Assembly: GCA_017506865.1 (NCBI GenBank)
Contig: JAFCMP010000257.1
Coordinates: 868,001-932,000 of the forward strand
DNA length: 64,000 nucleotides
Direction of reading: 5' to 3'
Origin: Tribonema minus
Lineage: Eukaryota; Sar; Xanthophyceae; Tribonematales; Tribonemataceae
The position numbers and the translations under genes are program-made. Below, in pieces: positions 1,352 through 64,000 of the stretch (position 1 is its first letter; every line of letters starts with the position of its first letter). The notes under the pieces are model-generated. The model searched no databases and was not told where the DNA came from. It was given only the letters and a program-made list of their open reading frames with translations.

Positions 1352-1452
1352 CTGTTTCTTGCTGTCGAGCAGGTGATACATTCCTGTAGACCGCCACCGC
1401 GATAGCATGTCAGCCAGCAGCTTGTAGCTGGGCAGAAAACACAGCAGCCCGC
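1352..1452 (-). CDS. FANCJ: FANCJ-like exon 9: [10 protein letters not shown] (last exon in window)
   Basis: 33 codons plus a shared codon. It encodes [20 protein letters not shown] and STGMYHLLDSKKQ, nearly the human order [20 protein letters not shown]. The donor GTATGG at the end shows the gene continues, but no further exon is recognisable down to position 1. Confidence 0.85.
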
Positions 1453-4400
1453 CTGCGACGTGCAGGAGCATCGGCGAGTGAAGTTCAACAGCAATTGAAG
1501 TTGCAGCAACTCGTGAATATGACGTTTCAAACGTAGCTGCTCGTTCAACATGTCCAAAGCGTCACCATGTGAAGTTGACTATAGCTCCAAAACAAGCAAC
1601 ATGCAGGGGCCATCAGCCTCTACGCTGCATTGCAACCAGCAGGCGCACTCTCAGCACATCTGCGAGCGTCAGCATGTAAAGTTTTAGAGACAACTTCAAC
1701 GCGGCAACATGCAGGCCCACCAGCTCTACGCTGCATCACATCCAACACGATAAGCCCTAACCCTAACCTTAACCGCAACCCTAACCTAACCCTAACTCTC
1801 ACCGTCCACCACGTCCGCGCACGCCAGCAGCGTCGCGCCGACGCCGTCCTTAAACTCATCCGTCCTCTGATTTTCCGACTTGCCAATCAGCCGATAGCCC
1901 GCCACCATCGCCGCCGCCGCCGCCGCCGCAGGCCCCGGCCCCTCCCCGTTGGGCGCTGCCGCCGCGGCCCGCAGCAGCAGCGGCCGCCACTGCGCCGCCG
2001 CCGCTGCCGGTGCCGCCGCCGCCGCAGCAGCGGCGGCGGCGGCGGCGCGCAGCAGCGGCGGCGGCAGCGCGCCGGCCATGCTGACGGCGGCGACGCGGCA
2101 CTGGCGCGCGACGTCGATGACGTGCGGGGCGCTGAGGCAGAGGCGCGGCGCGAACTCCGCGCCGAGCTCCCCCGTGAAGTCGGTCATGGGCGACAGCGTG
2201 CCGGAGGCGAGCGCGACGCAGCGCGCGCTCTCCGCGATCTCGCGGAAGCAGACGGATGCCGTCATCGCCCACAGGCGCAGCGTGAGGGTGGCGCGACCGT
2301 CGTTGGCGTAGGCGGGGCGCGAGCGCGCGACGCACATCCTGCGGTAAGGGGGCGGGGAGGGGGGGGGGGGGGGGGGCTGCTGAGTGCTGTGAGGGGTCAG
2401 GGGCTGAACTCATGTTCTTGGAAGGGGCGGGGGGGGGGGGGGGGGGGGGGCTGCTGCTGAGTGCTGTCAGGGGGGGCTGAATTCGTGCTCTGAGCATGGG
2501 TTTATCAGAGGATTGGCAGATTGATGACAGCTTGGGAAATATGTCCGCTGTCAGGGGACATCTTTGACATATTTTGTCAGGGGGGCTGAGCTCATGTGTG
2601 CGTGCACTCAGGGTACTGCATGGGTGTATCAGCTATATCATTTCCGCTTGGGAGCAGCTTGATGTACTGTTGAATGCCAGCGGCGAGTGCTATTAGCCTT
2701 CGAGCGCTGGGGAAGCGAGGAGTGCTGATGTTAATGCACTTTTGGTACTGCAGTTGAAGCAATGGCGCTCTGTCAGGGGCTGGGTTTTTGACCGACATCT
2801 AAACCTTACCCCTCACCCTGCCCCTAGAAGGGCACGGCTGCTATGGCCCACAGCAGTTGTAGCAGAGTGGTGATACTTCAGCCCGGTGAGCATAAGGTGC
2901 ATGTTAGGGTTAAATCACTGCTGAGCACCATTGGGGCGGGCTGGGGGTGTTTCTGCACTAGCGATACAAAATGGCTGGCTGTTCATTTGCCTAACCCTGA
3001 CCCTAACCCCAATGAGGGTTCCTAGTGGGGCAGTGGCAGCCTTTATGGACGGGGAGGATGCACACGCACACAACCTCGATGATGGCCTGCAGCAAGTGAG
3101 CAGTGCCAATGCATTAACGTGAGCCCAAGTCAACCAGCGCAGTGCTCGACCAGTTGCGCTGTCAGCATCGGTCAACAGTGCGGTACACTTGTTCCGCCAA
3201 GCGTCGTCAGATGCGGCGCTCAGCCATCCAGCCCAGCGCAGTGCTCAACCAGCTGCGCTATCAGCATCGCGGTACTTACCCACTTGCTGTGCTGAGCGTT
3301 GTCAACTGCTGCACTGCAGTGCTCAGCCGTCCTGCGCTGTCAGCATTGCTCAACGGTGCAGCACACTGCTGTGCGGAGCGTTGTCACAGGCGTGTCGCGC
3401 AACGGCTTGCTCATCAGCATCACGCGCAACACACCTGTAGTGCTATCAAAGGTGGCTGGCTGTTTGTTACAAGTGAGGATTCCTAATGTGGCACCCACAT
3501 GCTTGTTGTGCTGATTGTGGTAGCTTGACACAAGCCCACAGCTCCGCCATCCTGCACTGTCAGCATTGCTCAACGGTGCACCACACCTGCTGTTTGGAGC
3601 GTGGTTGCACACACCTATAGTGCTGAGCGTTGTCGCCGGTCCCAGGCTCACCCGTCCCCAGCAGAAACTGCGCCACCGTCAGCAGGCTCGTCACCAGATT
3701 GAGCGTTGCTGACGCCGGCGTTGCAGGCTCCTCCTGTTGAGCGCTGTTGCCACCCCCTTGGCGAGCGCCACCACCCCGCGCCTGAGCATTGCCGCCGCCG
3801 CCGCCGCCGCCGCCGCCGATGCCGCCGCCACCACCGCCGCTGCCGTCGCCGGTGCCGCCGCCGCCGCCGCCGGTGCCGCCGCCGCCGCCGCCGCCGCCAT
3901 CAGCATCGTCTCCGTCGCTGCCTTCGGAGTCACTGCTCAACATGGCGGCGCCGTAGCAGTTCGTGCGGCGGCGCGGCGCGGCAGCAGCGGCGACGGGGGC
4001 GGCAGGGCGTGGCCGCTTCTTTCCGGTAACGCGCCGCAAGGGCATAGTGCCGTCGCGGTCGCTGTCTGCGGCAGCTGCGCGGGTGTAACAGCAGTGAGAC
4101 GGCAAGCAGGTATGTAGGTATGCAGGGCCTCACAAGCGCCGCGCAGCGCTGTCGCGGCAGTGGTTTTGCATGGCAGCACGCGGCATGCACTGGTGTTTAG
4201 ACATAGGGGGGTGATGCTGCTGCGATGTACAGCAGCTTCTGGCATGCAGCACGATGCTGATGTTTGTGGGGCTCACAGCGAGGGGGGAAGGGGGGGGGGG
4301 TGGCAATGTCCACTGCTGAGCGCTGCTGCCACACAAGAACTAGTCGTAGGGTCACATTTGATGTTGTACGTAGCCCCCGCATTCAACCTCACATTGAACG

Positions 4401-63874: not shown

Positions 63875-63932
63875 CGGCGCGCGCCGTTGCGATCGCTTGC
63901 TCGTCCTCCTCGGCGTCGTGCCTGGCGGGGGA
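63875..63932 (-). repeat. Acceptor echo of the 63459-63686 exon
   Basis: CGCCAG|GCACGACGCCGAGGAG, continuing GACGAGCAAGCGATCGC, repeats the true acceptor about 240 bases upstream. The intron CAGTAACTTGAAGTT-like sequence beside it is shared with 63720-63760. Confidence 0.85.
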
Positions 63933-64000
63933 GCCAGGAGCGAGTGCACTCAGTAACTTGAAGTTACAGTTACAAAACAGAGTGTTGAAGTTGAGATTTG

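Follow-up and report, generated by a model that had tools for sequence, protein, structure and literature searches.

In the sampled part of the Tribonema minus genome, short direct copies of nearby sequence are concentrated at exon edges beyond chance or detection bias. Such an edge copy, here called an echo, comprises the end of an exon with its splice site and a short piece of intron, and lies in the neighboring intron. The window is a stretch of 64,000 nucleotides (C257:868001-932000), eukaryotic as judged by its spliced genes, from a surveyed genome of 158.2 Mb in 554 contigs. Coordinates are window positions unless a locus is named. Besides the window, the sample took in another 20 stretches of 10 kb each (four of which flank the window), 12 tubulin-family loci and three TCP1 stretches, amounting to 305,429 bases, a part of the genome and not all of it. 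Loci L001, L037 and L038 were left out of the counts. L037 (G000:C334:714136-714324, on a large contig) holds an rbcL fragment with a stop, encoding a red-lineage Rubisco large subunit and probably representing transferred plastid DNA; its best red-lineage entry had an E-value of 3.3e-31, compared with 1.3e-16 for the PDB entry Chlamydomonas 1gk8. By this fragment, the plastid line is probably red, contrary to an initial reading of the DNA as that of a green alga. Very long open frames of lower GC (869 and 2152 aa) occur at L018 7392-9998 and L019 2-6457; they may belong to a mobile element or to a giant gene lacking introns.

Gene models came from a purpose-written gene finder trained on the same sequence; all models and edges are thus predictions from the DNA sequence. 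The splice signals it found are plausible (CAG/GTGAG-like donors and GCAG acceptors), and its first exon inside the window begins at 1352, the same coordinate as in the preliminary description of this DNA. When 10 single exons were sent to Pfam, six matched a family (DEAD_2, SNF2-rel_dom twice with one match below cut-off, Helicase_C, RING, and DEAD below cut-off) and four matched none. In the FANCJ/RTEL-type gene, exon 7516-7675 matched DEAD_2 (E 4.7e-13) and exon 11131-11386 gave the below-cut-off match to DEAD (E 1.3e-4). The names Dim1, FtsZ, YigZ, SHPRH, FANCJ and F-box are our own readings of predicted proteins and not database assignments, the F-box label being shared with the preliminary description; the one exon of the F-box-like genes tried against Pfam, from 16175-24828, matched nothing.

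Self-comparison of the window on the same strand gave 98 matches, 66 of them no more than 2.5 kb apart, and the inverted comparison gave 6 matches, 1 of them within 2.5 kb; under another E-value setting, local direct and inverted pairs numbered 71 and 3. This preponderance of direct pairs indicates that the echoes of the preliminary description are genuine. The genes and echo-bearing edges are listed in Table 1.

Table 1 Helicase genes and exon-edge echoes in the window
Feature	Span	Strand	Parent	Echoes	Basis
FANCJ/RTEL-type DEAD_2 helicase gene with echoes	1352..12461	-			gene finder and Pfam
Acceptor edge 5083	5014..5415	-	5014-5089	5191-5266, 5340-5415	self-comparison and gene models
Acceptor edge 6192	6160..6626	-	6160-6243	four, start-to-start spacing 92-100 bp	self-comparison and gene models
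Donor edge 7516	7284..7595	-	7445-7595	7284-7434 (period 161, 85%)	self-comparison and gene models
SNF2/RING helicase gene (SHPRH/RAD5-like by our reading), running past the window end	42437..64000	-			gene finder; SNF2-rel_dom, Helicase_C and RING matches
Donor edge near 43396 (model: 43388)	43143..43486	-	43328-43486	43168-43326, 43143-43190 (overlapping)	self-comparison and gene models
Donor edge near 51244-51260	50298..51321	-	51199-51321	50724-50851, 50298-50359	self-comparison and gene models
Five-copy cluster, probably an acceptor edge missed by the gene finder	52461..53265	-			by eye: acceptor-like TGCAG and open frame
Donor edge 58734	57903..58814	-	58717-58814	five: 58562-58652, 58457-58508, 58289-58386, 58086-58175, 57910-58002	self-comparison and gene models
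Donor edge 61042	60585..61080	-	61019-61080	extending down to 60666	self-comparison and gene models
Acceptor edge 61230	61127..61528	-	61127-61207	61288-61368, 61448-61528	self-comparison and gene models
Donor edge 62548	62312..62602	-	62502-62602	62312-62412 (83%)	self-comparison and gene models
Donor edge 63459	63270..63496	-	63399-63496	63270-63366	self-comparison and gene models
Acceptor edge 63686	63633..63995	-	63633-63764	63868-63995	self-comparison and gene models

In the SNF2 gene, 26/38 local pairs include a copy that crosses a predicted edge; in the FANCJ gene 8/20 do, and missed exons may explain part of the 12 pairs that span none. For the SNF2 model (40695-80730), which extends beyond the window and may contain more than one gene, a more sensitive edge-wise search found echoes at 23 of 57 primary edges, and for the FANCJ model (-6855 to 16063) at 6 of 37. 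The F-box genes had been said to have none. This stands for edge-spanning pairs, as the F-box-like gene at 27342-39681 had four pairs of which none spans an edge and the one at 16175-24828 had no pair at all, but the edge-wise search, which recovered echoes at 0/12 and 1/15 edges of these two models, breaks the rule once. Two further features were seen in this part of the window. A run of 42 CAG units (98% matches) occupies 16745-16870, and a 176-aa open frame at 15022-15549 (codon-position GC 0.24/0.32/0.19), within a stretch of GC 0.43 (14001-16000) in an otherwise GC-rich region, looks foreign or organellar.

As originally described, copies of 5' exon edges lie upstream of the acceptor and copies of 3' edges downstream of the donor; this polarity holds, because the copies lie in introns. 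The number of copies per edge, put at up to seven, reached five at most (donor 58734). The suggestion that the copy nearest the edge is the best preserved is weak: it holds at 5 of 8 multi-copy edges and is reversed at donor -10426 of a BipA GTPase gene, where the nearest copy is 80.3% identical and the farthest 88.4%.

Echoes turn up in unrelated genes at places sampled throughout the genome and are not confined to the helicase genes: BipA, TCP1, FtsZ-like and Dim1-like (methyltransferase) genes carry them too. In the BipA gene, which lies upstream of the window and whose exons are supported by homology (phmmer E 4.9e-186), true exon edges are spanned by 12 of the 16 local pairs, which between them touch 9 of 19 splice edges. 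The other four pairs belong to the same arrays, three being copy-to-copy and one exon interior to copy, and the 5910 bp of BipA introns contained no group confined to introns. With the edge share from the simulation, and with groups taken as independent, such an outcome has a probability of roughly 5 in 10 million (0.2 raised to the ninth power). For TCP1, a whole-genome protein-level search returned 56 matches, of which 4 were redundant and lay at 3 edges; by reading, redundant exon matches with the same profile end position occurred in three of about 10 genes. The TCP1 echoes were confirmed in DNA, at identities of at least 86% in L035 and L036 and of 76-82% in L034, and the FtsZ-like locus L027 holds a DNA echo of 96%. 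Read in the same way across the whole genome, the matches for tubulin (23), DEAD (36), AAA (19), HSP70 (80) and Rpb2 (16) contained no protein-level redundancy; such counting has little power, as short echoes are expected to be missed. In the 20 sampled 10-kb loci, local direct pairs outnumbered inverted ones by 149 to 18 when summed, with 9 of the 18 inverted pairs coming from one locus. Echo frequency differed strongly among gene models with at least eight edges (chi-square 57.7, 17 df), several of which have zero echoes.

Over the ~305 kb sampled, the edge-wise search detected an echo reaching the edge at 66 of 423 primary exon edges, compared with 13 of 304 random intron probes. The copies are anchored: 84 of 458 edges had an edge-reaching copy, and six had only copies that stop short of the edge. 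When the gene models were slid along their contigs, the mean number of predicted edges hit over 300 shifts was 29.9 (sd 5.9, maximum 49) versus 64 of 305 in their true positions. Grouping of pairs yielded 114 groups: 62 lay at edges, 28 were confined to introns, 12 fell in exons away from edges and 12 outside genes. Relative to deep-intron points, the edge ratio was 2.6 (95% 1.7-3.7) for all pairs at primary edges only, and it climbed with identity to 4.6 at 80%, 8.7 at 85% (29/318 edges versus 65/6220 points; bootstrap 95% 4.3-17.9) and 11.2 at 90%. At 85% identity or more, the ratio was 7.0 (3.7-23.9) outside the 104-kb neighborhood (14/204 edges versus 35/3575 deep-intron points) and 5.5 (2.1-24.7) when the loci outside it were limited to the sampled 10-kb stretches. 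These counts are clustered within genes, and the bootstrap units were 20 to 39 gene models. The test set in the preliminary description, whether echoes are more frequent at exon edges than at random positions, is thus passed on the sample.

We considered whether duplications might fall uniformly, with edge copies merely staying recognizable for longer because their exon parent is conserved. Some bias of this kind is certain, as the exon part of a copy decays more slowly than the intron part, and the all-pairs ratio alone (2.3 to 2.6, with lower limits of 1.4 to 1.7) is nearly explained by a two-fold bias. The young pairs are not: the lower limits at 85% identity were 2.1 to 4.3 in four subsets, compared with an expectation of two-fold or less, although in the smallest subset the limit lies barely above it. 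Furthermore, uniform tandem duplication simulated on the gene structures of the window neighborhood and the sampled 10-kb loci, at exon rates of 0.15, 0.35 and 1.0 of neutral, led to an expectation of 0.25, 0.23 and 0.21 edge detections for every intron-only one. The same loci held 53 edge and 26 intron-only groups, a tally of groups and not of single events, in which the edges include false predictions. Together with the nine echo-bearing edges and zero intron-only groups of BipA, these results make detection by itself a quite improbable explanation.

The copies look like decaying neutral relics of repeated small DNA duplications. Exon parts of 50 parent-echo pairs matched at 86.6% identity, compared with 76.4% for the intron parts of the same pairs, which fits a constrained exon parent and a free copy under one clock. 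Coding constraint was sought in the copies and none was seen: mismatches between copies were near-even over the codon positions (0.164, 0.177 and 0.206; p 0.08), echo-private changes numbered 109, 130 and 133 over positions 1, 2 and 3, parent-side changes 8, 10 and 17, and 70 of 74 echo indels broke the frame. The even spread of changes and the frame-breaking indels argue against the echoes being alternative exons. Several of them were miscalled as extra exons by our gene finder, a warning for gene-prediction pipelines. GT or GC is still present in 44 of the 58 copied donors, which would suit selection for alternative exon ends or for the splice decoys envisaged in the preliminary description, but echo donors have decayed to a mean PWM score of 1.40 versus 4.66 for true parent donors, and together with the neutral decay of the copies this leaves a function of either kind very improbable. 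The pyrimidine fraction of the branch region was 0.62 at true sites and 0.56 at echoes (18 cases, some of them false exons).

Copies also resemble one another more in their exon-derived part (86.0%) than in their intron part (75.3%; the same 16 pairs, which are not independent), and this likeness could reflect gene conversion. Under such a scheme, old tandem duplications would be uniform, and the exon-derived part would be refreshed from the selected exon while the flanks decay. The fresher far copy at BipA donor -10426 is consistent with it, as is the loss of homology past the splice site: among the 38 copies whose exon part was 90% alike or more, intron homology was kept in 61% at 6-20 nt, 37% at 20-40 and 21% at 60-80. 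However, serial duplication from the parent also yields the copy-to-copy difference, and a single neutral clock, with no conversion, accommodates the mean divergences of exon and intron parts. We regard conversion as an improbable source of the pattern.

Edge mapping through the pairs gave 19 donor-donor, 11 acceptor-acceptor and 1 donor-acceptor correspondences. As donors match donors and acceptors match acceptors, the mapped edges do not record intron creation. This like-to-like matching in 30 of 31 cases and the edge excess support the original proposal that stretches spanning splice junctions were duplicated directly. For some of the youngest copies, simple tandem duplication with abutting copies is a poor fit. 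Spacers of 10 bp or less were found in 27/62 edge groups and 33/52 other groups; among young groups, 13 of 18 at edges have spacers of 16 to 121 bp and 6 of 7 away from edges are tight (7 or less), arguments from spacing and age that rest on few young events. In three of the youngest cases (-14001/-13903, L027 1357/1500 and L036 172/349), sharp-ended copies share 96-100% identity, and the spacer aligns poorly to both flanks (scores 6-13, with no formal null). Periods under 80 bp occurred in 8/62 edge groups versus 24/52 others (Fisher p 1.2e-4), and the longer periods of edge groups are not predicted by a single uniform process. A nucleosome-sized period was considered and dropped, the spread of periods being broad. 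Five young cases inspected by eye showed no junction microhomology. In one 10-kb locus (L010 2515-3265), a 375-bp tandem duplication, 98% identical, falls within a predicted coding exon and the sequence flanking it.

These features bear on the main rival to the exchange mechanism set out below, namely that exon-intron junctions are especially prone to breakage or polymerase switching, possibly through R-loops, nucleosome edges or co-transcriptional splicing, and that repair then places a copy of the junction in the adjacent intron, with filler separating the two. The wide spacers of young edge groups and the tight ones of young non-edge groups agree with this. So does the climb of the edge-to-deep-intron ratio from 2.6 to 11.2 with rising identity, by which the youngest events are the most edge-bound, and so does the coverage by local duplications, which is highest at the edge (24%) and drops on both sides, to 12% at 90 nt into the exon and 11-13% from 200 nt into the intron. 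Nonetheless, a search of 79 spacers revealed no junction motif beyond weak k-mers, and a TTGAAG-type motif, present near 9.7% of copy ends and 7.4% of random intron points, was not clearly tied to them. Moreover, acceptors with short intron homology would presumably need a new branch region in the filler. On balance, targeted breakage at junctions seems unlikely, if less so than gene conversion. We are similarly doubtful of a transcription- or splicing-linked mutational process at junctions that would continually copy exon edges, with ready-made splice sites, into introns and feed their growth.

Two word families stand out in the introns. The strand-symmetric family TTGAAG, ACTTCA and CTTCAA is strongly over-represented (TTGAAG 170 versus 46 expected), as are telomere-like TTAGGG/CCCTAA words (for example ACCCTA, 70 versus 19.5 expected). 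The latter occur at 1755-1796 and in L004 (window coordinates 72784-72923), in places inside or beside duplicated blocks, and are a possible sign of break repair.

The nearest mechanisms among those described elsewhere are repair-mediated duplication and break-end tandem duplication. The former, as described by Pace et al. (2009, PMC2671141), captures proximal DNA to give short nearby duplications with filler at their junctions. The echoes likewise are short copies of nearby DNA, and the pairs were found within 1-2.5 kb (counts being limited to that range), inside the 5 kb of repair-mediated duplication. They differ from the cases of that study, whose Table 2 gives 4 partial exon/intron donors among 824 human cases, in being far more often on exon edges and nearly all direct. 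Small tandem duplications are attributed in the abstract of PMC8355091 to breaks with single-strand protrusions, fill-in and end joining. Those duplications, like the echoes, are direct copies of short stretches; here, however, unrelated sequence lies between certain young copies, and that abstract is silent on any focus at splice edges. In potato, according to the excerpt of PMC4974935 (through which we cite Rogers 1989 and Gao and Lynch 2009), one tandem duplication crossing an intron-exon boundary made a new intron. The echoes also cross such boundaries, but here existing introns lengthen, donors copying donors and acceptors copying acceptors. Introners, as outlined in the excerpt of PMC9860276, are dispersed families that put splice sites into genes across a genome. 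In contrast, each echo derives from its own neighboring exon, and we found no insertion of the same element at many unrelated loci: one 341-bp echo stretch had one match in the 158 Mb genome, and the spacers shared weak k-mers only. Among the titles and abstract openings listed from the open-access literature we found no report of exon-edge copies as a genome-wide feature, which is weak evidence of novelty.

Our leading reading, which we hold with about even confidence, is that the echoes are relics of recurrent short direct duplications, arising from break repair or unequal exchange and tolerated when the extra copy is intronic. An event of repair or unequal exchange, as we infer its source to be, would double a stretch reaching from the exon interior a short way into the intron, with the mirror image at acceptors. 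The original edge would keep splicing, leaving the second copy intronic and removed with the intron, where it would drift neutrally until unrecognizable; duplications entirely within exons would harm the protein and be lost. Removal of the extra copy by splicing at a working edge would explain why the copies nearly always include the edge and lie on its intron side. This survival does not account for the rarity of intron-only events among young copies. A favored but unproven reason for the edge focus is that exons and splice signals may be the sole well-conserved sequence between homologous gene copies, so that misaligned exchange would be seeded there, and that events wholly within fast-changing introns would leave no visible repeat. 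Exchange seeded in this way needs divergent alleles, of which none was seen for the one 341-bp stretch tested, with its single match.

Each event adds DNA to an intron, in agreement with the growth of introns originally suggested. If the edge focus is genome-wide, it would mean either a source of mutation specific to junctions or that exons, through recombination, strongly influence how introns are shaped, and it would provide a natural supply of cryptic splice sites. Greater duplication at edges than in intron interiors is a prediction that can be tested in any annotated genome.
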